Below the pieces are notes generated by a model. The model was not told the DNA's origin and did not search any database. It was given only the letters and a program-made list of their open reading frames with translations. Positions 1 to 28,698 of a stretch of 36,573 nt of DNA are shown one piece after another. Within the stretch, counting starts at the first letter, position 1. Each line of letters begins with the position of its first letter. Both the position numbers and the translations under genes were made by a program. This DNA is from a virus: positions 1-36,573 of IMG/VR virus record IMGVR_UViG_3300035224_000249, one strand, 5' to 3'.

Positions 1-1651
1 CAAGTCTCTTCTTAGCAGCTTCAAACCCTTCGTCGGTTAATCCACCTAAGTCTCTTTTCTCTTCTAGCTGCTCGATGGTACTGATCTCGCCAGAGTCGAT
101 CTGATCGGTGATTAGAGCATCACCAATCTTGGCACCACTACCATTTTTGTATCCATCAAGCTCTTCTGCTAACGCAAAAGCATCTTCATCTAAACCATCT
201 CTTTCAAAACTCTTTATCTGAGCACTGATGATAGAAATACGCTGAGCTTTATCAGTGACACCCCTAAGGCTCTCTAGCATCTGCCTACGGCCTTGCTTAG
301 CAATTATGGTGCGTTGACCTTCTATATCACTATAGGTATCAGCACTAGCTTCTTCTAGATCCTCACCGTACATATAGGCAAGCTTTGTTCCTGCATTACC
401 AGGGACCTGCTCAATATTACCAAGGGCAATAAGACCTTCATTGTTATTGGTCCCTTTGAAGAAGTCCCGCATCGTCTCATAAGCAGACTTAGATGCAGCA
501 CTCAGACTAACTCCACCATTGATTATGTTGGAATCAGTTAGCGCCTGGAAACTTTGTTCCACGGGAACACCAGCTGTATACTCAGAATAGAAGTTAGCTT
601 TAGCTGTAAAATTAGCTGTCTCAATCGTATTCTTCTCTACCTGTCCATATAGTTTTGCTGATAATTGAAGGTCTGCATTATCAACCTGTGCTCTTAAGGA
701 GCGGACAGCTTCAGCAGCATCCATACCTTGGACATCAACACTCTGGAACTGAAAATTCCTTCCATACTTAACAATGGCATCAGCTTCAGCATAGGTCTTA
801 GGATTACGACTATCAATCGTACCCACACCATTAGGGTTAGGTATCTGTGCTCCACTTTGCTGCCAACCTGCTAGCTTGCCGTAGTAACTAGTACCAAAGT
901 CTCTTGTAGACATTTGGTTCATAACCCTTTCGGATCTAGCTAGAACCTGCCCTTGGCGTAGTACAGACCTTTCAATAGGACTAGGGGTGAGATTCTGAAT
1001 TGCCTGTTCACCAGCAAGCTCAACAGTAGTTTGGTTGTTATCAGCAGTAATCAGTTTTTCGGCTATATTCAGATCGATACCTGTCATGAACTTAACATTA
1101 TCAACCCGCTCTTGCTCTACCTTTTTAAGCTTATCAATTTCTGCGTTGTATTTAACTACAGACCCAGCAAAGGAAAGCATCCCGTTGATAGCAGTAGAGA
1201 ATGCTTGAGTCCTTGCGTTTTGTACCTGTGAGGAAAGCTGTTGGGCTGTCTGGTTAAATTGATCTTGCTGTTCAGAAGCTAAAGTATCTAGCTTAAGTAC
1301 ATTTGTTTGAAGGGTTTGCTTAACCTTTTGCTTGTTCTTCTCATCAAGCTGCTTGTTATTGAGAGTACCCTCATTCCATAGCTGTTGACGCTTCAGAGCA
1401 AAACCTTCAGCTTCAAGTTGAATCTTAAGAGCTTGAGAATCAGCGTCCTGTTGTCCACTTCTCTCTAGGTTCTCCAATTGGAACTGTCTTTCCAGTTCCC
1501 TATTCTTTACAGAATCATCAGCTGCTACCTGTTCCTTATATCCCTGCAAAGCCTTCTGACTAGAGGCAGCTTTAACAGAGGTGAAATTCCTTGATTGTGC
1601 TGATCCTTGGTAGCGAGTACCGCCAAAGTCTGCCTTTTGTAATCTAGCCAT
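1..1651 (-). CDS. Internal core protein, gp15-like (partial, 3' end cut by window edge)
   Basis: The reading frame starts with ATG at 1651 and stays open to base 1, giving 550 codons without a stop, so the C-terminus lies outside the window. The visible part begins MARLQKADFGG and is rich in Gln, Ala and charged residues, with long helical, coiled-coil-like stretches and no membrane segment. It follows the gp14-like gene by 3 bases and sits where T7 has gene 15, whose product is a core protein ejected into the cell with the DNA. The assignment rests on gene order and composition; I recognise no diagnostic motif. The next gene in T7 order (gp16, with the transglycosylase) is not in the window. 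Confidence 0.75.
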   Translation of the reverse strand, partial: MARLQKADFGGTRYQGSAQSRNFTSVKAASSQKALQGYKEQVAADDSVKNRELERQFQLENLERSGQQDADSQALKIQLEAEGFALKRQQLWNEGTLNNKQLDEKNKQKVKQTLQTNVLKLDTLASEQQDQFNQTAQQLSSQVQNARTQAFSTAINGMLSFAGSVVKYNAEIDKLKKVEQERVDNVKFMTGIDLNIAEKLITADNNQTTVELAGEQAIQNLTPSPIERSVLRQGQVLARSERVMNQMSTRDFGTSYYGKLAGWQQSGAQIPNPNGVGTIDSRNPKTYAEADAIVKYGRNFQFQSVDVQGMDAAEAVRSLRAQVDNADLQLSAKLYGQVEKNTIETANFTAKANFYSEYTAGVPVEQSFQALTDSNIINGGVSLSAASKSAYETMRDFFKGTNNNEGLIALGNIEQVPGNAGTKLAYMYGEDLEEASADTYSDIEGQRTIIAKQGRRQMLESLRGVTDKAQRISIISAQIKSFERDGLDEDAFALAEELDGYKNGSGAKIGDALITDQIDSGEISTIEQLEEKRDLGGLTDEGFEAAKKRL

Positions 1652-1654
1652 TAG

Positions 1655-2524
1655 TTAAGTAGGTATGTTTAGCTCAATAAAATTTGGTGTATCTGGTAAT
1701 GACGGTAATACTGGATCTTGTGGCTGAAATGGCATGTTGCTCATAGCTTGATTATTAGCAGATTGAGCAGAGAGAAATGCAGAGTCCATGCCAATAAAGG
1801 CTTGATCTGCTTTACTATCAAGCATTGCGTCTTCCTGAGCCATGGCAAAGCCAGCCTGACGACCTACATCATTTACAAGTAAGCCCACAGACTGGCCAGT
1901 GCGACCAGAGGCAAGGATTGTTCCTTTAGCACCAATAGACTTTGCAAGAATATTTTGTTGTTCAAAGGCTGCTTTCTTCTTAGCTTCAGATAGTTTTACC
2001 TGTTCCGCTACATAGGATCTATTAGCACCTTCATTATTAAAGTCTATTTGATCCCTAGCTTCTTCAGATGCACGTTGATATACTAACCTATCAATTTCAT
2101 TCTTCCTCATGATCTGAGCGCGTTCATTAAGTACCATGCGCTGTTGCTGTTGGTACTGATTTAAGATATTGGTATTAGCTTGTTGTACCTGAAGGTTAGC
2201 TTGAGCGGCAGTTGCATTCTGCTGTTGTATTTGATTCTGCCTATTGGTCTGCATAGTCAGCATCTGTTGCTGCCTCTGCTGTTGCTGTTGTTGTTGCATC
2301 TGAGCAGTCATCTGCCGGTTCTGCAACTCCATTGACCTTTGCATGTTGACCGATTGATTAGCCATGCTTTGCTGCTGCATAGCCATTGAGGCTTGAGCCT
2401 GCTGTTGTTGCTGCTGAGCTTGATACATACTCATGCCAATAGAGGCAGCTGTAGTAGCAGCACCAATGGCAAGCGTTGCGTTGGCTATTGCAGCACCAGC
2501 TACGGTACTTTCTACGACGCACAT
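1655..2524 (-). CDS. Internal virion protein B, gp14-like
   Basis: A 289-residue protein. Residues about 10-30 are a small-residue hydrophobic stretch (AIANATLAIGAATTAAS) that could insert in a membrane. Residues about 35-130 are extremely Gln-rich with several runs of four or more Gln, followed by a charged helical region. In T7, gp14 forms the outer-membrane part of the ejection channel, and a hydrophobic N-terminus plus long helical body fits that. The start overlaps the upstream gp13-like gene by 13 bases. Cyanophage gp14 homologues are poorly conserved, so the name rests on position between gp13-like and gp15-like genes and on composition. A glycine and alanine containing segment near residue 200 (AKGTILASGRTGQSVG) is also visible. 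Confidence 0.72.
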   Translation of the reverse strand: MCVVESTVAGAAIANATLAIGAATTAASIGMSMYQAQQQQQQAQASMAMQQQSMANQSVNMQRSMELQNRQMTAQMQQQQQQQRQQQMLTMQTNRQNQIQQQNATAAQANLQVQQANTNILNQYQQQQRMVLNERAQIMRKNEIDRLVYQRASEEARDQIDFNNEGANRSYVAEQVKLSEAKKKAAFEQQNILAKSIGAKGTILASGRTGQSVGLLVNDVGRQAGFAMAQEDAMLDSKADQAFIGMDSAFLSAQSANNQAMSNMPFQPQDPVLPSLPDTPNFIELNIPT

Positions 2525-2967: not shown

Positions 2968-5900
2968 ATGTTTGTGATGCCACGGCGGTTATAATGTCCC
3001 TCCCAGCTATAAGAAGTAATGCTTGCTGGTAAGGGATCAGGTGCTGTAATAATGACCTTTGCTAGATCACCTCTACAATAAATTGGTAATGCTTTAGTTG
3101 TTACCTCTTGCAGTGCTGCTTCATTAGCAAGGTAGACATCAGCAGGAGTTACATCCAAATCAATATTTACATCAAGGTATCCTTGACGTTTAAGAGTAAC
3201 AGAGTATCGACCTGAATAGTAAAGGTCAATATAAGCATTCTCAACCATAGGAAGATTTCTTCGATCTGATTTTTTTTCCTGCCTAATAAAGAACGCTGGT
3301 AGCTCTACACTCATTATGTAGCGAGTGCCAACAATATACTCTTCAGACGCAATACCTGCATCAACTTCAATATAGTAACCAGTAGTGTCTTGTAGGACTT
3401 GTGGAGTCTGAAATAAAGTTGCTGTACCATCAACAGTGAGGATAATATCGATAACTGTATCTGGTGTATCAGCATCTGTTACTTGGTAACTACCGGCAGG
3501 TAGCCTGATACGAGTGGTTGTGTCGTCTACCACCTCAGAAGTTGTCTGTGACTTGAGTAAATAAAAATCAAGCCTAGGTGTAAACTTACCACCAAAGGCA
3601 TTAATCGGACTTGTCTCTGGATCATCCAACATCTCCATCCTACTTAAAGTATGGGAGCCATCATTAAAGGTGACAAAGTACCCTGTATCATGATCAAACT
3701 CAGCTAGCTTCACATCAGCAGAAAAGATCCACTTGCACCATCCAGCCACACTACGCTTATTACCTTCATTGAAAAACTTAAACAAGTATAGAGTGTTATC
3801 GCCAGTGCCAAATAAACAGAGACTGTTGTTAGCACTAGCTGAGGAGATGAGAAGATTAGGTGGTATGTACTCTGGGACAATCCTAGTATTTTCAGATACT
3901 ATAGGTCTATCCTCTAGGGCCTCTAGGGCCATTTCAAAGACCTTTGTGAAGGTATCTGCCTCGGTGGCAAATAGAACCGACACACCCGTTTCTAGAGGCA
4001 GTACATTAGAGTTATAACTATAATTAGAAATATTAGTAAGCTTAACCGTAGCAGGTCCAAAAGCAACATCAGAAGTACCTAATAAGAACTGATCATTCTC
4101 AGCAAAGAGAAGAAGTCCTTGAGGTGTACCTAGTGCTGCTTTTAAGTTAGCTGGTTTGGTTGAGCTAGCGGTCATGTCAATTGGGTCAGCATCGCTAACA
4201 GCAATAGCAGAGCCCACAAAATAATTGAAATAGTCACCAGGCTGGCTAAGAATAACTGAGTCTTGAGCTAATAAACCAAGACGATTAGAGAAGAAGAACA
4301 TCCCTGAGATGGCGCGTCCAACAAATGTTGGGGCTGGGTTTGTATCTTCATCACCAACTTCTCTTGGTGCATAGCTTAAAAACTCATCAAACTCAAGACT
4401 TAATGGTCTAAGAATAAAAGTTCCATCTGATTGCCTAATTAAGGCATGTGGCATTGTTGATGGGTTTAAGTTGGTTGGTATACCTGGCTTAACTGTTTCT
4501 TCCCATGAGCCTTGACCAGGGATATCACCAGAAGCAGGAACAAACCTGACATAATAATCATCAGCTGATGAGTCAATAGTGTTGCGTACCTTAAGAACAA
4601 CCCCTTCTATACATTGATCAGGGAGTGATGAAATATCGTTAACAGAGCCCTTAACACCGGTCATAGCATTATCTGCTGTACCACCTCTAGTTTGAATGTT
4701 AAATTCTCTCCCATCATCTCTCTCAATGTGGATGGTACTACCAATAGGGGTAGCTGTATAAGCTGAAAGTGCATTAATGCTAGTTACTAACCCTCCTGTA
4801 ATCGTACCAATATCAAGAGCACCTGCGGTGGTGTCAGCAGCAGTAGTAAAGGAAACGCTTGCTTCGGATGCATAAGCAAACCCAAATGTCTCGTCAGTTA
4901 CAGTTATAGTATAAGACTTACCATTTAGAGAGACACTAACTGAATCGCCTATACGCCAATTAGCGCCACCATTGTTAAGAGTTACCCTAGCATTGTAAAC
5001 TGATTTATAACTATAGTCTGGCGTTGATGCTCCTTGACTAACATTGGTTACAAGAACAGTTGCAATAGCGCCACCACCATTAACTTGTCCGCCCTGTCCA
5101 ACAGCCCAAGGGCTTGTAGCTGGTTTAGCGGTATAACTTTTAATCTCTACACTGGTAACATCATATCTATTCCCCGAAAGTGCGGCATCAAATTTTTTAC
5201 TTACACGGCCATTAATCCTAACCTGTAAACTACCATTAGCAGTAGGTTGATCAACATAGACATAAGAGCCAACACCTTTAGTATCAGCACTACCTAAAAA
5301 TGAAGTAAAAAATGTCTGTGGCTGAGGAATTGAAACACTAGCAGCAGTAGGATACTTAGCACCCTTAACTTGCTCAACAACTTGAGTAGGATTACAATTA
5401 ACTTCTAACCTAAATCCTAATCCAGTTTTATTTCCAGAGCCATTTTCTACAAAGCTTTGAGCACCTGCAAAGCTGCAAGATGAATCTACAGCACCCTCAG
5501 CATCTTCAAATGAACCCGGAGATACGCTAATGGATTTAGCTTTGAAAACTTTTTCTTGAACAAGCTGATCACCATCTTTGAGAAAGTCAATGGTGTATGT
5601 AGTATTATAAGCAATCTGATTGATATTAACAAGAGCTTCTTGTTTAGCAGGGTCAGAAGTTGCAGTATCCATTGAGACTATCTTCTCTTCATTTGATATG
5701 AGAGTGTAATCAGCAATGGTTAGTGTCTTGATACTACTAAGATCATTACAAGCCAAGTAAACCCTTGAGTCACCTTCATAACTAACAGTTCTTTCAACAC
5801 CAGAGTCTGCTTCAAATGCTCTAATAGTAAACCCATTTACAGAATCATTGTAGGTAGCAATAACATAACGCTCCTGAGAATCCCTAAAGATGTTGAACCA

Positions 5901-6089
5901 CTTAGAATTCTCAGGTATATCACTAGCTAGATTTGCTAAGAACTGCGTAGGTGGTCGTTTCCTACATCCGAAAGTTGGATCGAGTAAAACATTCTCAGCT
6001 TCCCTTACCTGTCCTGGAATTTTATTTGGATCTGGTTGTTGGTTAACCCCGCCTAATAGGTTAGGTATAACCTGAGAAATAGCTGCCAT
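2964..6089 (-). CDS. Tail tubular protein B (gp12-like nozzle)
   Basis: A 1041-residue structural protein immediately after tail tube A (2-base gap). The N-terminus (SQVIPNLLGGVNQQPD, then AENVLLDPTFGCRKRPPTQFLANL) is the typical start of podoviral tail tubular protein B: a QQPD segment followed by a Gly-rich, Arg-Pro region. In T7, gp12 forms the nozzle at the tip of the short tail and contacts the tail fibres. The protein is longer than T7 gp12 (about 790 residues). The extra length appears to lie in a Ser, Thr and Gly rich beta region at about residues 160-480, typical of inserted surface domains. Residues about 560-800 contain the conserved core. Assignment is firm from sequence and order. 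Confidence 0.9.
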   Translation of the reverse strand: MAAISQVIPNLLGGVNQQPDPNKIPGQVREAENVLLDPTFGCRKRPPTQFLANLASDIPENSKWFNIFRDSQERYVIATYNDSVNGFTIRAFEADSGVERTVSYEGDSRVYLACNDLSSIKTLTIADYTLISNEEKIVSMDTATSDPAKQEALVNINQIAYNTTYTIDFLKDGDQLVQEKVFKAKSISVSPGSFEDAEGAVDSSCSFAGAQSFVENGSGNKTGLGFRLEVNCNPTQVVEQVKGAKYPTAASVSIPQPQTFFTSFLGSADTKGVGSYVYVDQPTANGSLQVRINGRVSKKFDAALSGNRYDVTSVEIKSYTAKPATSPWAVGQGGQVNGGGAIATVLVTNVSQGASTPDYSYKSVYNARVTLNNGGANWRIGDSVSVSLNGKSYTITVTDETFGFAYASEASVSFTTAADTTAGALDIGTITGGLVTSINALSAYTATPIGSTIHIERDDGREFNIQTRGGTADNAMTGVKGSVNDISSLPDQCIEGVVLKVRNTIDSSADDYYVRFVPASGDIPGQGSWEETVKPGIPTNLNPSTMPHALIRQSDGTFILRPLSLEFDEFLSYAPREVGDEDTNPAPTFVGRAISGMFFFSNRLGLLAQDSVILSQPGDYFNYFVGSAIAVSDADPIDMTASSTKPANLKAALGTPQGLLLFAENDQFLLGTSDVAFGPATVKLTNISNYSYNSNVLPLETGVSVLFATEADTFTKVFEMALEALEDRPIVSENTRIVPEYIPPNLLISSASANNSLCLFGTGDNTLYLFKFFNEGNKRSVAGWCKWIFSADVKLAEFDHDTGYFVTFNDGSHTLSRMEMLDDPETSPINAFGGKFTPRLDFYLLKSQTTSEVVDDTTTRIRLPAGSYQVTDADTPDTVIDIILTVDGTATLFQTPQVLQDTTGYYIEVDAGIASEEYIVGTRYIMSVELPAFFIRQEKKSDRRNLPMVENAYIDLYYSGRYSVTLKRQGYLDVNIDLDVTPADVYLANEAALQEVTTKALPIYCRGDLAKVIITAPDPLPASITSYSWEGHYNRRGITNI

Positions 6090-11288: not shown

Positions 11289-11469
11289 TGTTTAGCTTTG
11301 CAATTAGATATTCAATAACTGATCGTTGACCAGACCTGTACATGATCCTGGTCAGATCATCCTTAGGAGAAGGTGTAAACTGTGGATACATACCATCCAG
11401 TTCATCTACTATTCGTTGGATAGCAGAATCACCTTCAAATACATCTTTTGGTGTTAACTCGTTAGCCAT
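11281..11469 (-). CDS. Conserved-looking small protein, 62 residues
   Basis: The product starts MANELTPKDVFEGDSAIQRI, is soluble, and has predicted helices around residues 15-28 and 40-60. It overlaps the ribonucleotide reductase beta gene by 8 bases and the gp7.3-like gene by 8 bases, so it is tightly coupled to both. I do not recognise the family. The LTRIMYRSGQRSVIEYL segment looks like a structured helix rather than linker, so the gene is likely real. Confidence 0.65.
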   Translation of the reverse strand: MANELTPKDVFEGDSAIQRIVDELDGMYPQFTPSPKDDLTRIMYRSGQRSVIEYLIAKLNNV

Positions 11470-12181
11470 ACATGGGGAGATTTAGGTTCGAGGCTTCGAA
11501 AAACGCTGGCATTCTGCTGCGCTTCGTCTCACCAAGTCCATCAGCCTTTCCCTGGGTGTAGAGACTGTCGGACTGTCGCATCCAGAAGTCCTTATTGAGG
11601 TACTTATTGGAGCTATGTCCCAATAGATCCATTGCCCAGTGGACTGTGGCTCGACGGAGTTTGTTGAGGTTTTCTGTTGACTTAAGTCCCAAGTCGTGGG
11701 CAACCATGGCGTGGCTTGCGACATGGCTGATTTCGTCTCGGCTGATATCTGATGCAACGGTCCTGATTCCAACTGATCCGTTAAATCGAAAGAAGGGGAG
11801 GAGAACAAAGAAGACACTTCGTTCAAGAATTGCAGTCTTAAGTATCGGGTGCTCAGGTGCTTCCAACCAGGCTTTCCTGATCGCCTGAGCTTCACGCTCA
11901 GCTTCATCGTCAACACCGTGAGCGTCAACAACAAACGAGAGAGCTTGGTCATGCTTCTCCTCATCATTGATATTAGATTGAAGGGCAGGGATGACACCAG
12001 GATCATCAGGTAGGTCTCTCTCAAGACCTTGTAAGAGCATCTCCTTTACGGGTAGCTCTAGTGTGCGAAGAGAAAGACAACGCTTCAGCGTGTCTTCTGA
12101 ACCCACAACAAGATCACCCTTAGTAATAGGTGTTGGGGTCCAGGCTCTTTTCTTAGAAATTACTTTTAAATAGCTTGACAT
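11462..12181 (-). CDS. nrdB: Ribonucleotide reductase beta subunit, R2-like ferritin fold
   Basis: A 239-residue protein, shorter than typical R2 (about 340-370). It carries paired metal-ligand motifs of the diiron/dimanganese ferritin-like fold: E74-x-x-H77 in NDEEKHDQA, E120 in AILERSVFF, and E150-x-x-H153 in RDEISHVASH, with an acidic residue near 47 or 54 as the fourth likely ligand. At the position of the radical tyrosine of E. coli R2 (seven residues after the first ExxH glutamate) there is Leu81. The gene abuts the alpha subunit. Known cyanophage RNRs of the P-SSP7 type were reclassified as class I with such a short beta subunit. No Tyr lies within four residues of that position. Confidence 0.8.
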   Translation of the reverse strand: MSSYLKVISKKRAWTPTPITKGDLVVGSEDTLKRCLSLRTLELPVKEMLLQGLERDLPDDPGVIPALQSNINDEEKHDQALSFVVDAHGVDDEAEREAQAIRKAWLEAPEHPILKTAILERSVFFVLLPFFRFNGSVGIRTVASDISRDEISHVASHAMVAHDLGLKSTENLNKLRRATVHWAMDLLGHSSNKYLNKDFWMRQSDSLYTQGKADGLGETKRSRMPAFFEASNLNLPMYG

Positions 12182-13572
12182 TACTCAGCGCAAGATGAAC
12201 AGTAGTTGTTATCGTCTTGTGCCCACTCTTCAAATCCAAAGATGTCCTTGTAATCTTCATCCATGATCGCCGCTGCATCATCTTTGCGCAGGGTATCAGG
12301 TTGTACTTGGAGGGCGTAGTAGAGACTGGTTTGAACTGATTCCAACCAATCGCGGATGAAGTTCTCATCATACGTGCAGCAATCGCTCCACGAATTTAAA
12401 CTGTAGCCATGAAACAATCCAGTATCAGTAAACATCTGGACTAATCCATCAGCTACTTTCCTAAATGTTTCGTACCCTACCTCTGCTGCGATTTCAATAT
12501 CATCGCCATAAGAATAGGATTGAACACCAAAGGTTCCACTATCACGGTCTACCTCACGGGCAATAGGCGGCGCTATTTCTGGAGTGCAAGTGTTACCTTC
12601 AAGGTCTTGGTAGCGGTAAGAGCAGGTAGCAGTTGGGGCAATAGTGAAGGCTCTCTCCATGCGGTGAAGCCTTGCGATATCAGCTGCCTTGTGTATGGCC
12701 TTTCTTAGTTCTTCTGCAAGAACTGTGGCAGGTGTATTAGCCAAAGGGAAGGGGCCACTATTGACCTGCTCTAGCGCTTCACCAAACTCTTCGTAAGAGA
12801 CCTTGTTAAGTGCCAGGAAGTTAGCCAGTCCCAACACCCCAAGACCAACTTGGCGATCCTCCTCTGGTGGAAGATAGTGACCACTCTTGGATACTCCTGT
12901 TCTTTGATGGAGATCACATAGTTCGGCCATTCCTTCTTCAAACGCACTAGAGAGATCTTCCACCCTGCAGGCACCCAAAGAGATGTGCTCCAGCAGACAG
13001 GTGCCCCGTGAACGGAGCGCGATTTCAAGACAAACGTTAAAAAATATCCGCTCCCCGTGCTTGTCGTATTTGACCTTACAAAGCCAAATGTCCCCTGCTT
13101 GTATCCCTTTATAGATAAGTTGTTTGGTAAGTTCGGAAGTTTCATTCCACCACTCCTCAGTTACATCGACACAACGCTTGACCCAAGGGAGGTCTCTCCT
13201 AGAGGCTGTAAGGAACTCATCGATATCAGCATGATTTAAATCTAGGTGGATCGTAATCGCGCCTGATCTGTAAGTCCCACCGCGACGGAGTACCTCGTTG
13301 AGGGTGGAAAAGATTTTAGCGAAGGAAACTGGACCACTAGAGATAAGACCTTTTCCATTGTCATGCCCTCTTGGGCGTAGATTAGATAGGTGGATAGCAC
13401 AGCCAGCTCCGTAGCGGAGAGCATGTCCAGCGAAGGTGATTGCTTCTTCGATTCCATCAGGTCCCTCGTAGGAATCCATGACGTTGAACACGGTGCAGCT
13501 GACCGGTAATCTTGATTGTGGATTGTCTAGCCAAGATTGAACTCTTCCGGTTCTTGCAATACGTTCTATCAT
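12181..13572 (-). CDS. nrdA: Ribonucleotide reductase alpha subunit (short class I)
   Basis: A 463-residue catalytic subunit that converts ribonucleotides to deoxyribonucleotides. The active site is visible: C26 in LPVSCTVFN and C192 in GTCLLEHISLG form the redox pair, and N179-x-C181-x-E183 in FNVCLEIA carries the thiyl radical cysteine. The C-terminus ends NYCSSCAE, the flexible CxxC that re-reduces the active site. It lacks the N-terminal ATP-cone and much of the typical length (about 750 residues). It overlaps the beta gene by one base (TAATG). P-SSP7-type enzymes were once called class II because of their short length, but the adjacent R2-like gene supports class I. Confidence 0.88.
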   Translation of the reverse strand: MIERIARTGRVQSWLDNPQSRLPVSCTVFNVMDSYEGPDGIEEAITFAGHALRYGAGCAIHLSNLRPRGHDNGKGLISSGPVSFAKIFSTLNEVLRRGGTYRSGAITIHLDLNHADIDEFLTASRRDLPWVKRCVDVTEEWWNETSELTKQLIYKGIQAGDIWLCKVKYDKHGERIFFNVCLEIALRSRGTCLLEHISLGACRVEDLSSAFEEGMAELCDLHQRTGVSKSGHYLPPEEDRQVGLGVLGLANFLALNKVSYEEFGEALEQVNSGPFPLANTPATVLAEELRKAIHKAADIARLHRMERAFTIAPTATCSYRYQDLEGNTCTPEIAPPIAREVDRDSGTFGVQSYSYGDDIEIAAEVGYETFRKVADGLVQMFTDTGLFHGYSLNSWSDCCTYDENFIRDWLESVQTSLYYALQVQPDTLRKDDAAAIMDEDYKDIFGFEEWAQDDNNYCSSCAE

Positions 13573-13973
13573 TAGACAAGATCTTGTAAATAAGGTTGGT
13601 GATAATTGGGGCCTTTTAAGACTTTTCCGTCCTCTCGCTTGAGAGGTTTGCCATCGACAAGCTTGGACATATTAGATTCATAAACCCTATCCAGGGCTTC
13701 ATCTAATTCCCAACCAGCAGCGGCGGCATATTGAAAACAAACAAAGACAACATCAGCTAATTCTTTTAGCAGGTTCTCTCTACTTCTTTTGTTTTGGATG
13801 TAGGTCAAGGCTTCACAATGAGCCTCGATCACTTCCTGATACTCCTCGGATATCAAACGCATCTGGGCCAAAGCTGCTGTGGGGTTGAAAGCTCCGATGG
13901 GTTGGTCCATCACTTTCCTGAAGTGAATCGCTTGACCCATCAGGTCCGGTGCTTTGTAAGTCATTGTGCTCAT
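13572..13973 (-). CDS. mazG: MazG-like all-alpha NTP pyrophosphohydrolase
   Basis: A 133-residue protein with the MazG/HisE helical pattern: an EExxE motif in LISEEYQEVIEA and an ExxD motif in LLKELADVVFVCF, followed by a helix GWELDEALDRVYESN and LKREDGKVLKG. These acidic residues bind Mg and hydrolyse nucleoside triphosphates to monophosphates. In cyanophages MazG is thought either to recycle host nucleotides or to alter alarmone levels. ATG at 13973 is chosen over a TTG two codons upstream; ATG at 13964 is also possible. The 5' end overlaps the DUF3310-like gene by about 160 bases, which is unusually long. It abuts nrdA (start 13572). Confidence 0.85.
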   Translation of the reverse strand: MSTMTYKAPDLMGQAIHFRKVMDQPIGAFNPTAALAQMRLISEEYQEVIEAHCEALTYIQNKRSRENLLKELADVVFVCFQYAAAAGWELDEALDRVYESNMSKLVDGKPLKREDGKVLKGPNYHQPYLQDLV

Positions 13974-14175
13974 GCTCAAGTACGGTGGTTTGAATAAGTT
14001 TGCGAAGATAAGTAGCAGCCTTAGCTAAGTCATCAAGCCTTGATTCACCTGGCTTGTTACCTGCACGGCACACGTACTTGATAATGTTTCCTTCAAGGAA
14101 GCTTAGTTTCTGTGAGACGATGAAGTCCCAAGGCTCAATGCCTCCCTGGTAGTGCTCAGGATTAGTCTTTGTCAT
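13813..14175 (-). CDS. DUF3310-like phage protein
   Basis: A 120-residue protein from ATG at 14175 (MTKTNPEHYQGGIEPWDFIV). The NPEHYQGGIEPWDFI start, the LEGNIIKYVCRAGNKPG block and DDLAKAATYLRKLI form the compact DUF3310 domain common in phages, sometimes annotated as a nucleotide kinase-like protein but with no proven activity. The domain ends near residue 66. The remaining 55 residues (HEHNDLQSTGPDGSSDS onward) are Ser/Gly-rich and run in an alternative frame over the start of the MazG gene. They may be non-essential read-through. The start overlaps the 48-residue gene by 14 bases. Confidence 0.75.
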   Translation of the reverse strand: MTKTNPEHYQGGIEPWDFIVSQKLSFLEGNIIKYVCRAGNKPGESRLDDLAKAATYLRKLIQTTVLEHEHNDLQSTGPDGSSDSLQESDGPTHRSFQPHSSFGPDAFDIRGVSGSDRGSL

Positions 14176-14308
14176 CGGTGGGGTTGTGGAACTCGCGGTT
14201 GATTTTGTCGAACAAGTCTTCTTCAAACTTTCCCCATAGCTTCACGCCATGTGGAATCTCTGTGTACCTGTAAGCAGCTTTAGCTAGCAATCCATTACGG
14301 ATATACAT
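14162..14308 (-). CDS. Small protein, 48 residues
   Basis: ATG at 14308 gives MYIRNGLLAKAAYRYTEIPH and ends in HNPTDDKD. The gene bridges the NblA-like and DUF3310-like genes with 14-base overlaps on each side, the same overlap style as its neighbours. The middle (VKLWGKFEEDLFDKINREF) is a likely amphipathic helix. I do not recognise the family and no function can be proposed beyond membership in the replication and metabolism operon. Confidence 0.6.
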   Translation of the reverse strand: MYIRNGLLAKAAYRYTEIPHGVKLWGKFEEDLFDKINREFHNPTDDKD

Positions 14309-14525
14309 CAGCTCCTGCAGAGTCAGATTCAAACTCATCTTCGTTCCAGTGGTGAATTAGGTTAGAGATAGTATTCTTAAGTACAAAGTTATGACGAATT
14401 AAAGCAGAGACACACTCAAGAATGGCATCTCTATCCGCTTCTTTTATGTTATTCTCTAGCTTTCTCATCTCAAACTGCTGTTCGTAGGTGAGTTCAAACA
14501 CTATCGGTGGTAGGGGTTTGTTCAT
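14295..14525 (-). CDS. nblA: NblA-like phycobilisome degradation protein
   Basis: A 76-residue protein with the pattern of NblA: ELTYEQQFEMRKLENNIKEA (compare the family's LSLEQxF+LR..xxQI..), then RDAILECVSALIRHNFVLKN, ending in ISNLIHHW. The spacing of two helices joined at DRDAI, the LxxEQQF motif and the LI+HNFVLKNxxxNLIxxW second helix match. NblA binds phycobiliproteins and the Clp protease to trigger antenna breakdown during nutrient stress. NblA genes are known from freshwater cyanophages and from some marine phages. It overlaps the exonuclease gene by 32 bases. The C-terminal acidic tail (NEDEFESDSAGAD) is longer than in typical NblA. Identity is by pattern only. Confidence 0.62.
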   Translation of the reverse strand: MNKPLPPIVFELTYEQQFEMRKLENNIKEADRDAILECVSALIRHNFVLKNTISNLIHHWNEDEFESDSAGADVYP

Positions 14526-15261
14526 TAGTAGGGTTGATCAGAATAGGCTCTTGTTTATCTGCATCCCAATCCTCTGCTTGCAAGATTTTTGCCAGCCTTA
14601 GATTACGGAGTGCATCTGCATCTGTCTGACCAGCACTTCTAAAAGCCTCCAGTACTGCCCCCCAATAATTACCATCCTTAACACCTTTCAGTATCAAAGA
14701 AGCTTTCTTAGGGCCAATACCTTTAGCTCCGCTGTATCCATCACAGCTGTCACCTGTTAAGCATTGTTCCCATAGCTTTAGGCCAGCTGCTTCCTTGGAT
14801 TGAGTAAACTCTTCCTTGAGATTCCAGATACGACAGGGGATCTGTTGAAGATCCTTATCAGGAGAAACGATTACAAAATTAGTAATGTCGCCCTTGGTAG
14901 CGAGGATGCCTAGGACATCATCAGCTTCTAGCTTTGGCTTAAGGACACTAGGCCAAGTAAACATGGCCCATTCCTTCAACTTCTTATATCCAGCAGGCTT
15001 ACGTTTAACACGGTTACCTTTATAAGAAGGGTCTACATCCTTGCGGAAGTTTTTTGTATCAGTAAAGCAAAGAAGAAGGTCATCAGTATCAAACCTTTGT
15101 CGTAGCTTGCGTAGCTCAGCCTTAACGATCTTCTTACCTTCAGAGAAGTCACCAACAATGACGGTGAGATCACTGGTGTATTCAATCTCCATTTCAGCAG
15201 CGCTGCATGAACGGTACAGAAAATAGTCCGCATCAACTAGGAGCTTGGTCGGTTGTAACAT
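14494..15261 (-). CDS. 5'-3' exonuclease (T7 gp6-like, FEN fold)
   Basis: A 255-residue nuclease. The metal ligands of the FEN/PIN fold are visible: VDADYF near the N-terminus, LEADDVLG at about 120, SPDKDLQQI at about 142, and the DGYSGAKGIGPKKA helix-hairpin segment at about 178. T7 gp6 degrades host DNA for nucleotides and removes RNA primers. The start ATG at 15261 is directly preceded by a CACACACC leader that lies inside the end of the upstream endonuclease VII-like gene. The gene sits between that nuclease and nblA. Confidence 0.85.
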   Translation of the reverse strand: MLQPTKLLVDADYFLYRSCSAAEMEIEYTSDLTVIVGDFSEGKKIVKAELRKLRQRFDTDDLLLCFTDTKNFRKDVDPSYKGNRVKRKPAGYKKLKEWAMFTWPSVLKPKLEADDVLGILATKGDITNFVIVSPDKDLQQIPCRIWNLKEEFTQSKEAAGLKLWEQCLTGDSCDGYSGAKGIGPKKASLILKGVKDGNYWGAVLEAFRSAGQTDADALRNLRLAKILQAEDWDADKQEPILINPTNEQTPTTDSV

Positions 15262-20678: not shown

Positions 20679-21524
20679 TTAGAGACGGCCTATTGCCTCA
20701 TCACAAGCCGATTGAGTGGGCTTGATGTAGCGAAGGCTGACCTCCACCGATGAATGCCCCATTACTTCCATGATCTGGCGGGGTGCTGCATGTTCACCGA
20801 GCCACGTCCCGAAGGAGTGCCTCAGTGTATGCCAGCAATGATCCTCAGGGATGCCTAAGTGATCGCGCACCTTTTTGAAGGCGTAGTAAAGCCTGTCCTT
20901 GGTTTCAAAATCATCTCTGAATAGATAATCATTTGAAGCACGGCGCTGTGCGATCTCCTTAATGCGATCAGCGAGCAGGATTGCCCGAACATCGCGTGGT
21001 TTTGTGACTTGCTCTGGCTTACCACCAATCCATAAACGATTGTTGATTAGATCCAAATCACGCCCCCTGAGTTTCATCAGTTCCCCCTGCCGACATCCCG
21101 TATAGGCACTCCATAGGATTGCCTCTGCTAGATCAATGCGATCAAACACATGAACAGCGGCATAAGCCATGTCCTCTACTTGATCCTTAGTAAACCAAGT
21201 AAGACGGTGCTTACCTTCCTTAAGACGCTTAAAAGGAGGGCAGGGAGTGCCATGTAAGCCAGCTAGGTAACTCTCCTTTAGGACATGTGTCCCGTTGGAG
21301 CAGATCCTGTTGACCGTACTGGTGCTCTTGCCTTCATCTTGTAGCTCCTCTTGGAGGTTCATCCAGAAGCCAGTCTTCCCCATCTTGGTGAGGGGATAAC
21401 TCCTCCCAACATGACGTGAAATGTGGTTGCTGTTGATGATTGCTGTCTTGGCGGAACGGGTGCGCTTCCAGCGTTTCATCTGGAAGTCCAGGGCTTCACC
21501 CCAGGTCTTGACGGTGGTTTTCAC
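20679..21524 (-). CDS. int: Tyrosine recombinase (integrase)
   Basis: A 281-residue site-specific recombinase. The catalytic set is visible: R145 in YTGCRQGELMKLRG, H232 and R235 in WHTLRHSFGTWLGEH, H257 in VMGHSSVEVSLRYIKPT, and nucleophile Y266 in the same segment. The N-terminal part (residues 1-90) is a core-binding domain. It starts with GTG at 21524, preceded by ATACACACC. Cyanopodoviruses such as P-SSP7 carry integrase genes although lysogeny is rarely observed. The tRNA-Leu fragment directly downstream is the candidate attachment site. Confidence 0.93.
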   Translation of the reverse strand: MKTTVKTWGEALDFQMKRWKRTRSAKTAIINSNHISRHVGRSYPLTKMGKTGFWMNLQEELQDEGKSTSTVNRICSNGTHVLKESYLAGLHGTPCPPFKRLKEGKHRLTWFTKDQVEDMAYAAVHVFDRIDLAEAILWSAYTGCRQGELMKLRGRDLDLINNRLWIGGKPEQVTKPRDVRAILLADRIKEIAQRRASNDYLFRDDFETKDRLYYAFKKVRDHLGIPEDHCWHTLRHSFGTWLGEHAAPRQIMEVMGHSSVEVSLRYIKPTQSACDEAIGRL

Positions 21525-21749: not shown

Positions 21750-24083
21750 TCAACAAAAGAAATACTTTGAATCGTTTACTTGGGTTATATCAAGTGTATT
21801 TTTCACAAGACCCTCAGGAATAGTTACCCCTACCTGATCAGCCCAGTTTTGTAACACTGGCTCCTTATACATCTCAACAAAGTGATGCCTAATTTCAATC
21901 GACATCTGATCAAGATCACAACTCCTACCTAGAATGCAATCATGGATTACGGAAAAAGGCTGATCCCAATGAGCAAAGGTCAAGTGGATCAAGGCAGCAT
22001 CATGGCTGTGAGTAACGTTGGGAGCTAGAGCATTACGGTGATGAGGTACATCTGGCTCGGCATAACCACTAGCAACAACACTTTGAACAGCTGACCCAAG
22101 TAACCTCGTTTTAATGAGGTGACCCTTTGGCTTTCGCAAGTCTTGACAAACAACAAAGCCACTAGGTGAGACCCATTGGATTTGACTTTGTCGCTGCATG
22201 ATTTCGCTAGCGCATTGCTGTAGCCACTCCATAGCTTTAACAGGACCAGGAAAGATCTCAGGGATAGATTCCTCAAAGACAACATTCACAATGTTTGAAA
22301 GAACACCAGGCTCCTTCAGGTCTCGATTATCTGCTTTTAGGGCTTCTCTGATGTAGTCACGGGCCGAATGCTTACGGATTCCGTAGGGGGTACACATACA
22401 GACCCTCTTTGTAACCTTTCGGTTCATCCAGGTATTCAATGGAGCAGGTAATCTCTTAGCTGCATGTTCTGCAACTGTTCGATAACCATCCTGTGGTTGA
22501 TCATTAGGAATCAAATTAACCAGCTCACCGCTGGATTTGTCCATACACATGGCGGAGAGATGCTGGATCCCACTTTGGGTTGCATCTATGCCCACGGGCA
22601 GGCCACTGGTCTTCTTATCACCAAGGACACAATCAACCCATTCACAACAAGCGGCCATAAATGCCCATGGTTCAGACACCTCCTCCCATAAAGGGATAGT
22701 GCCGATGGGATCTGTTCCTACTTGCTTGATTAGGTCTTGGTTGTCATAGGTCCATTGGATGCGAGCTTCCATTGATAACTTGTCGTTACCAAACGTATTG
22801 CTACAAGCAAAGGCAATCCAGTACTCATTGACTGGACCCTCCTCTGCAAAATAGAAAAGACTCTTGTGATGATCTGTCCCCTGTGGGTTTAGACCAGTCA
22901 CTAAGGGATAAAGCCTCCCCCTATACCCGAAGCTCCAGGGAACCCAAAAGATCTCACCCTCATACATCCTGGCGATATACATCGTTTCTGATGTAAGCCA
23001 GTTGTTCTGGGAGATTTGGGCGTTGTCGTCATGGATCTGGCGGCTTTTACGCTTCCAGACCTTCAGCTCCTCTTCAGTCGGTTCTCCGTCCAAAGGTTCG
23101 GGAGGCTGTTGCCATGCCTGACACCTGAATTTGCCGATGGTGATTCGCTGCTCATAACAGTGCTCACTAACAGCAAAGACACGAGGGTTGATCTTCCAAG
23201 CGACAGACTGAGCATTGTTCAGCATGTCGATGGGGACCTGTCCCTGCTGTACATCACCCGATAGCCCACTCTTACGCACAAGTGAGTACATCTCTCGATA
23301 AGAGCTGGTTAAATAGCCGCCACGCTGATCATTAGCCCAGGCCACAGGAGGGCACAACATAGGCCATTGACAGAAGCTCATAGCCTCAGCCTGATGGATG
23401 ATCGTGTCCCGCATTTCTAAATACGCAGGTGCATATCTCATTACTGTATGGCTCCGCTTACCACGGGTAATAGATACTTTATGCACCCATCCCGTAACAG
23501 TGATGATGCAATCAAGAATCCAGGCCCCAACCTTATGCTTGGTGAGAGAGTCCCACTCACTAAATTGTGGAACCGAGCAGGCTTCACTGTTAAATGACCT
23601 TTTGATTACTGTCAACTTTTGCCTTGTACCCGTGGCCTTGTGAAACCATTGAGAAGCTTTCTCATAAAGCTCGGGATCTTCCTTGTGGTAATAGTCAAGC
23701 CTCATCTGTGCGCAGATAGCAGCACCTATCGGAACGCATAACTCTTGGAAGCCTGGATCCTTTGTCTTACCAAGCACATCTAGTGCTTTCTTAAGACCAA
23801 TAAGCCCAAGAGTCCGTTCATCTGATGCATCCTTTAGATGCCTGAATACTGTTGCAGCATCAACTGAAGCTTTACCACGTCTTAGCACAAACAAACGCTT
23901 TGTGATCAAGTCGTTGATCAAGGGTAAGTATGTTCTGATTGCTGATTGACCAACAACACTACTTGATCCGTAGGCCCTTTCGTTAGCCACGCGGGTTCGA
24001 TTAGTAAGCATTTGGATGGCTGTATCCTTAGCTTGGATCTCTCGCTGGAGCTGCCTTGCGAGGTTATCAAGTGGTGCTTGCAT
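21750..24083 (-). CDS. Single-subunit DNA-directed RNA polymerase (gp1-like)
   Basis: A 777-residue polymerase of the T7 family. The catalytic Asp of motif A is D500 in LPVGIDATQSGIQHLSAM. Motif B has K559 R560 and Y567 in RKVTKRVCMCTPYGIRKHS. Motif C has D715 in VIHDCILGR. GYRGRLYP at about 386-394 matches the GR motif before motif A. T7 gp1 is 883 residues, and the shortening is largely in the N-terminal domain, as in cyanophage enzymes. It would transcribe the middle and late blocks. The ATG lies 19 bases past the T-tract of a terminator-like hairpin and no Shine-Dalgarno sequence is visible. Confidence 0.95.
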   Translation of the reverse strand: MQAPLDNLARQLQREIQAKDTAIQMLTNRTRVANERAYGSSSVVGQSAIRTYLPLINDLITKRLFVLRRGKASVDAATVFRHLKDASDERTLGLIGLKKALDVLGKTKDPGFQELCVPIGAAICAQMRLDYYHKEDPELYEKASQWFHKATGTRQKLTVIKRSFNSEACSVPQFSEWDSLTKHKVGAWILDCIITVTGWVHKVSITRGKRSHTVMRYAPAYLEMRDTIIHQAEAMSFCQWPMLCPPVAWANDQRGGYLTSSYREMYSLVRKSGLSGDVQQGQVPIDMLNNAQSVAWKINPRVFAVSEHCYEQRITIGKFRCQAWQQPPEPLDGEPTEEELKVWKRKSRQIHDDNAQISQNNWLTSETMYIARMYEGEIFWVPWSFGYRGRLYPLVTGLNPQGTDHHKSLFYFAEEGPVNEYWIAFACSNTFGNDKLSMEARIQWTYDNQDLIKQVGTDPIGTIPLWEEVSEPWAFMAACCEWVDCVLGDKKTSGLPVGIDATQSGIQHLSAMCMDKSSGELVNLIPNDQPQDGYRTVAEHAAKRLPAPLNTWMNRKVTKRVCMCTPYGIRKHSARDYIREALKADNRDLKEPGVLSNIVNVVFEESIPEIFPGPVKAMEWLQQCASEIMQRQSQIQWVSPSGFVVCQDLRKPKGHLIKTRLLGSAVQSVVASGYAEPDVPHHRNALAPNVTHSHDAALIHLTFAHWDQPFSVIHDCILGRSCDLDQMSIEIRHHFVEMYKEPVLQNWADQVGVTIPEGLVKNTLDITQVNDSKYFFC

Positions 24084-27961: not shown

Positions 27962-28102
27962 CTAAGACCCCTCTGGAAGCTCTTCTAAGGCTTTTAAACA
28001 AGATTTAAGTAGATCTGGACTACCATTCATCTCCTTAAGCCTTCTAATGGCTTCTAGGAGCCTCTCACGTCTCGATACGCTTTCATTACCATCGGTAGAC
28101 AT
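27962..28102 (-). CDS. Small protein, 46 residues, overlapping thyX
   Basis: ATG at 28102 gives MSTDGNESVSRRERLLEAIR and ends EELPEGS. It overlaps the end of thyX by 49 bases in another frame. The product is charged and helical (RRERLLEAIRRLKEMN, then LLKSCLKALEEL), like a two-helix hairpin. The overlap is long, and no Shine-Dalgarno is clear, so the call rests on the open frame and helical composition. Function unknown. Confidence 0.45.
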   Translation of the reverse strand: MSTDGNESVSRRERLLEAIRRLKEMNGSPDLLKSCLKALEELPEGS

Positions 28103-28698
28103 AGATCTAATACTTCACCACATTGAGTAGCTATCTGTTGATGTTCAAGTTGAGTGCCATTAGCTGATCGTAGATCGACATAATGAATCCAAGACCTAAC
28201 TGTTCCTGACATATAAAGTCTGGTGGGAGTGCCAAGGGGCAAGATCTCCCTTGCACATTCCTTAGCAACACCATCATTAATCATCTGTTTATAGAGAAGC
28301 TCAGACTTTTGATATAAACAACCAATCTGAAGATGATAGTCCCGAACTTTTTGACCATCTAAAGTGTCAGTACTGTTTTGACGATTCTTTAGGTCTTGCT
28401 GTCGAAGAGCAGGAGGTTTAGCAAAAGAAAGGGAACTAACATCAGCATAACGCTGGGAGAACTCTTGGAAACTAAAACTGCGATGCCGAAGGATCTGGGC
28501 AGCAATAGCTCTAGTGGTTGATATTTCGATAACCACATGAGCCATTTCAAAAGGAGACCAGTGATTGTGTTTGATGAGATAGCGAATCAGCTTCTCACTC
28601 TCAGGATTGTCCTGATTCAGGGGGTTAGATACCCTTGCACAATAAGCAATAGTCTTCTCAGCATTTGGTGTGACTGAGATAAGGGATACAGTAGACAT
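28054..28698 (-). CDS. thyX: Flavin-dependent thymidylate synthase ThyX
   Basis: A 214-residue enzyme that makes dTMP from dUMP using methylenetetrahydrofolate and FAD. The ThyX motif RHRxxSxNExSxRY appears at residues 71-84 as RHRSFSFQEFSQRY, with Gln in place of Asn. The region SPFEMAHVVIEI upstream and DVSSLSFAKP downstream also fit. Length is normal for the family. It would pair with ribonucleotide reductase to supply thymidylate. It stands apart from the replication block, just after the terminase terminators, and is the first gene of the post-terminase region. Confidence 0.93.
   Translation of the reverse strand: MSTVSLISVTPNAEKTIAYCARVSNPLNQDNPESEKLIRYLIKHNHWSPFEMAHVVIEISTTRAIAAQILRHRSFSFQEFSQRYADVSSLSFAKPPALRQQDLKNRQNSTDTLDGQKVRDYHLQIGCLYQKSELLYKQMINDGVAKECAREILPLGTPTRLYMSGTVRSWIHYVDLRSANGTQLEHQQIATQCGEVLDLCLPMVMKAYRDVRGS

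Follow-up and report, generated by a model that had tools for sequence, protein, structure and literature searches.

The window, by which we mean the whole 36,573-base virus contig analysed here, carries a short minus-strand gene that probably encodes a phage NblA, i.e. a two-helix ClpC adaptor that would dismantle the phycobilisome of the host; we infer both this activity and its benefit to the phage. Membership of the gene in the NblA family is supported by profile, motif, predicted secondary structure, and synteny. An open reading frame had been proposed at 14295-14525 in an earlier note on this DNA, and we confirm it and place it on the minus strand, where it encodes a 76-residue product (MNKPLPPIVFELTYEQQFEMRKLENNIKEADRDAILECVSALIRHNFVLKNTISNLIHHWNEDEFESDSAGADVYP). 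The gene and its neighbours are as follows.

14295..14525, minus strand: nblA-type gene, 76 aa (start codon ATG at 14525, last base of the stop codon at 14295; above the Pfam PF04485 cut-off; relatives in the same slot)
14349..14495, minus strand: NblA domain, residues 11-59, with predicted helices 14-29 and 32-64 (Pfam profile, AlphaFold)
14295..14338, minus strand: end of nblA that encodes the acidic tail (residues 63-76) and shares its DNA, in a different frame, with the start of the 58-aa gene (ORF coordinates, phrog_17835 match, relatives)
14162..14338, minus strand: 58-aa gene, phrog_17835, function unknown (phrog profile match; similar to a P60 product of 56 aa)
14494..15261, minus strand: 5'-3' exonuclease gene of the T7 gene 6 type, upstream of nblA (Pfam PF02739)
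13813..14226, minus strand: DUF3310 gene, downstream of nblA (Pfam PF11753)
13572..13979, minus strand: MazG-like pyrophosphohydrolase gene (Pfam PF03819)
12181..13572, minus strand: ribonucleotide reductase gene (Pfam PF02867)
11462-12181, minus strand: gene for a 239-aa product, phrog_6799, named ribonucleotide reductase class Ia beta subunit (E 2e-108)

Synteny puts nblA in a block of replication and nucleotide genes, which agrees with the replication-operon setting first suggested for it. The more specific placement, between exonuclease and DUF3310-like genes, holds on the exonuclease side but not on the other, where the 58-aa ORF (14162-14338) intervenes. The gene overlaps both of its neighbours, by 32 nt with the exonuclease gene at the nblA start and by 44 nt with the 58-aa gene. 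Further along the block, the 239-aa phrog_6799 product is encoded directly behind the reductase gene, and the same is seen in Syn5 and S-TIP28.

The acidic tail pointed out in the earlier note is present and is unusual, but it is no clear special extension, as it coincides with the overlap with the start of the 58-aa gene. Specifically, the ATG of this next gene (14338) lies inside nblA, and the 44-nt overlap looks genuine because the phrog_17835 match begins at the third residue of the 58-aa product. The last 14 NblA residues (DEFESDSAGADVYP) are thus an other-frame reading of the N-terminus of the 58-aa gene. The same arrangement occurs in environmental relatives (L107-L109, L142-L144, and L146), with overlaps of 38-53 nt and tails such as ELDATGVEIPEERS. 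The reading of the tail as a special functional extension was not retained, since the tail falls where the two genes overlap; gene overlap, rather than a special domain, is its best explanation, and it may still have a functional role.

The product scores above the Pfam cut-off for NblA (PF04485; 30.2 against 25 bits, E 6.2e-7, profile positions 1-49 of 50), and this match is the single one in the whole contig. All of the motifs that had suggested NblA are present, i.e. LxxEQQF (L12-T-Y-E-Q-Q-F18), DRDAI (residues 31-35), HNFVLKN (45-51), and NLI (55-57). A search of PDB sequences with the single protein returned four NblA structures (3cs5, 2q8v, 1ojh, and 2qdo) weakly, with a best E of 0.005, and the phage profile recovered NblA structures with a better value (E 3e-4). 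Profile-profile comparison of the window subgroup with chromosomal NblA gave a probability of 93% (E 3e-7), with the alignment running mainly over the first helix and the turn. The NCBIfam equivalog model for chromosomal NblA (NF045916) gave 23.5 bits, far under its cut-off of 100 bits, and we therefore do not class the window protein as equivalog to host NblA.

The AlphaFold model (32 sequences; monomer) predicts helices at residues 14-29 and 32-64; residues 11-50 have mean pLDDT values of 92-95, and confidence in the tail is low. This predicted secondary structure is the two-helix hairpin expected of an NblA monomer, and its turn falls at DRDAI, just where the two helices had been proposed to join. 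The two expected helices are thus predicted, although the comparison with known NblA structures by fold search gave no match. Foldseek found nothing in the PDB even with E values up to 10 allowed, and VIA-align returned no NblA among the only 3 chains compared; a missing match from either says little because the model, a 76-residue helical hairpin, is so short. A structure search of BFVD, equally uninformative for such a short hairpin, gave nothing significant.

Relatives of the gene are found by tblastn in 33 phage records, and an alignment query of IMG/VR returns at least 488 related stretches; a search of related loci by exact peptide patterns from the window protein alone had no hits, the patterns being strict. 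In isolate genomes, nblA comes after the T7-like exonuclease gene, and DUF3310, MazG, and ribonucleotide reductase genes lie downstream of it, although some phages lack one or more of these. The window gene has this cyanopodovirus nblA position: the T7-like exonuclease gene comes immediately before it, and the MazG and ribonucleotide reductase genes come after it. In GenBank records of isolates, these relatives are often unannotated or labelled "hypothetical"; annotation frequently misses this short gene with its overlapping neighbours, so counts drawn from annotated records would be too low. Pfam also misses the copies of the same gene carried by Prochlorococcus-type phages (L009, which is P-SSP7, at 1465-1776; L012; L015; and L101).

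When a bacterial genome collection is searched with the phage profile, only five contigs match. The one examined belongs to the assembly of Prochlorococcus W8 and shows polymerase, exonuclease, and nblA in phage order, and we read all five as phage sequence within assemblies, with the context seen for W8 only. A more divergent NblA-like ORF, which scores 23.1 bits and falls just under the Pfam cut-off, is found at 1420-1707 (minus strand) of L103, a phage contig within a picocyanobacterial assembly, where it sits in the same slot, between exonuclease and MazG genes.

Judged by its core genes, the virus belongs to the Syn5/P60/S-TIP28 (MPP-A) lineage. Its terminase (TerL) is 76-84% identical to those of S-TIP28, S-CBP42, P60, Syn5, and SS120-1, and at most 68% to all others listed. 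The same pattern is seen for the portal (63-72% to S-TIP28, Syn5, SS120-1, and P60; at most 57% to others listed) and for the exonuclease (61-65% to S-TIP28, S-CBP42, P60, Syn5, and SS120-1; at most 51% to others). P60, Syn5, S-CBP42, S-CBP2, and P-SSP9 form the MPP-A cluster, with genomes that lack psbA, and P-SSP7 belongs with its relatives to MPP-B (PMC4646655); P-SSP9, accession HQ316584, is the SS120-1 record. Based on this lineage, a Synechococcus host is likely. Outside the nblA region, the window has a tyrosine-recombinase integrase gene (20679-21524, minus strand; PF00589) that adjoins the T7-like RNA polymerase gene (21750-24083), an arrangement shared with S-CBP42, and no tRNA gene that could mark an integration site was found in the window. 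A ThyX thymidylate synthase gene (28054-28698, minus strand; PF02511) adjoins the terminase gene, and thyX is present in two MPP-A Synechococcus podoviruses (PMC4646655).

A profile search found no nblA in P60, Syn5, S-TIP28, or SS120-1, while the positive controls S-TIP37, S-RIP2, and P-SSP7 were detected, and it found none in S-CBP42 or S-CBP2 in a run without a positive control. These six MPP-A isolates are also absent from the 33 records with a relative. Behind the exonuclease gene, Syn5, S-TIP28, and SS120-1 have no annotated nblA-type gene. The same slot in the remaining three holds a different protein of 78-80 aa with a hydrophobic N-terminus, which looks membrane-bound (L135, P60, 2718-2960; L139, S-CBP42, 42863-43105; L140, S-CBP2, 5709-5945), and the P60 copy is unrelated to NblA by profile.

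Environmental contigs with the exonuclease nearest to that of the window do carry nblA (L106-L110, L142-L144, and L146), and two contigs nearest SS120-1 (L111 and L112) have no nblA in the slot. On a tree built from few columns, the window copy clusters with four of those from the nblA-bearing contigs (support 89/87, together in 92% of bootstrap trees), and the cluster adjoins the MPP-B group as a separate subgroup. Environmental contigs of the MPP-A type thus have a distinct subgroup of nblA, which is present or absent in one slot. One such contig with nblA, L143 (IMGVR_UViG_2716884610_000003, 47602 bases), is possibly near complete. No match to psbA (Photo_RC) or hli was found in the window, a 36.6-kb fragment compared with about 45-47 kb in complete relatives. 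We tentatively propose, as one possible reading, that the MPP-A subgroup, whose analysed lineage genomes lack psbA, has an nblA lineage of its own and would dismantle the antenna without the psbA that MPP-B brings, the slot being filled by nblA, by an unrelated small protein, or by nothing. Phage nblA is already known as a kind, and what may be new, as a modest point, is the MPP-A distribution: nblA now reaches a lineage of phages in which the six isolates checked had none that matched. The relatives with an empty slot (Syn5, S-TIP28, SS120-1, and environmental contigs) offer natural comparisons of phages with and without the gene.

Among potential hosts, Pfam NblA is found in 109 of 145 sampled Cyanobacteriia and in 4 of 201 picocyanobacterial-family genomes, one of the 4 matches lying on a phage contig. 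Of the same 201 genomes, 106 encode a divergent NblA-like protein on the chromosome, at up to four places per genome (e.g. L104, 1423-1680, plus strand), and for this reason we do not claim that the likely host family lacks NblA. The phage profile matches only two places in these 201 genomes, both of which are phage sequence by context.

If the window protein works as NblA does, it would dimerise into a four-helix bundle, and the dimer would bind phycobiliproteins of the phycobilisome and hand them to the ClpC chaperone for proteolysis. NblA is described as bridging phycobilisome proteins and ClpC, and its structures are four-helix bundles of dimers (review PMC7966870). Made from within a replication and nucleotide-metabolism block, the protein would take the antenna down during infection, which may lower light capture and release amino acids to the benefit of the phage. 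In PMC9602691, Nadel et al. 2019 are cited for nblA predicted in 14 cyanopodovirus strains; the same paper describes nblA genes from marine viral metagenomes that, when expressed in S. elongatus, cause the spectral shifts of phycobilin loss, and freshwater cyanophages in which phage nblA expression accompanies falling host phycobilin. Phage NblA is also reported to cut light harvesting in the ocean: according to a 2026 review (PMC12892361) citing Nadel et al., Nature 2025, many oceanic cyanophages have NblA that degrades the light-harvesting complexes of the host, and the effect on global photosynthetic light capture is estimated at up to 5%.

Whether the frame is a functional gene at all can be judged from its relatives. 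In 103 pairs of environmental relatives, pooled pN/pS over the core 46 codons is 0.077 in the nblA frame; the two remaining forward frames give 1.2 and 7.5, and differences at the three codon positions number 337/80/933. The pairs are of MPP-B type; the copies nearest to that of the window have diverged too far for the test. By these sequence-based measures, the nblA frame of the environmental relatives is under strong purifying selection and is a real gene. E15, Q16, L42, F47, and L49 do not vary among isolates and nearest contigs, and N51, N55, and W60 hardly vary. That the window gene is a spurious ORF matching NblA by chance has next to no probability: the frame is short, overlaps both neighbours, and has counterparts that many GenBank records leave unannotated, but the codon-position differences, the low in-frame pN/pS, the Pfam E of 6e-7, and the at least 488 relatives all speak against it, and in our view selection and profile results exclude it. 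An NblA that is vestigial or has decayed, retained only through its overlap with the neighbours, would fit the two overlaps and a tail shaped by one of them. However, core residues 15-60 of the window protein lie outside both overlaps, and the core of the relatives is strongly constrained (pN/pS 0.077), so this already disfavoured explanation is very improbable.

Somewhat less improbable, yet still unlikely, is an NblA-derived ClpC adaptor whose main client is another photosynthetic or host protein and not the phycobilisome. Relatives of the gene occur in phages of Prochlorococcus, such as P-SSP7 and P-SSP3, and to our knowledge Prochlorococcus has no phycobilisomes. The second helix, which in NblA bears the phycobiliprotein-binding residues, is also the more divergent part of the protein. 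By contrast, most MPP-B relatives fall under the Pfam NblA cut-off and the window copy is, by Pfam score, among those closer to canonical NblA, and a marine viral NblA is reported to cause phycobilin loss (PMC9602691). The phycobilisome is the probable target of the window protein, with NblA as its probable identity.

Compared with chromosomal cyanobacterial NblA (1ojh, 2qdo, 2q8v, and 3cs5), the window protein has in common the EL-x-x-EQQF motif, R21, and L56, and a turn between two helices that is predicted at the same place. It is longer (76 aa against 54-65 in the solved chains), and its second helix is only weakly similar. In the freshwater cyanophages Ma-LMM01, MaMV-DC, and PaV-LD, NblA is phage-borne as in the window; these are different phages, and PMC9602691 calls freshwater cyanophage NblA phylogenetically distant from that of marine and estuarine cyanophages. 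Close counterparts are in the MPP-B cyanopodoviruses S-RIP2, S-TIP37, S-SRP01, S-CBP4, and P-SSP7, which have NblA of the same family in the same slot. The phrog_17835 gene that overlaps the tail of window nblA is not seen in MPP-B records, and the NblA proteins of these and similar records are 41-52% identical to that of the window, with lengths of 65-103 aa against 76 aa. E15, Q16, L42, F47, L49, N51, N55, L56, and W60 are common to both, while the window has H58 where its MPP-B relatives usually have K.
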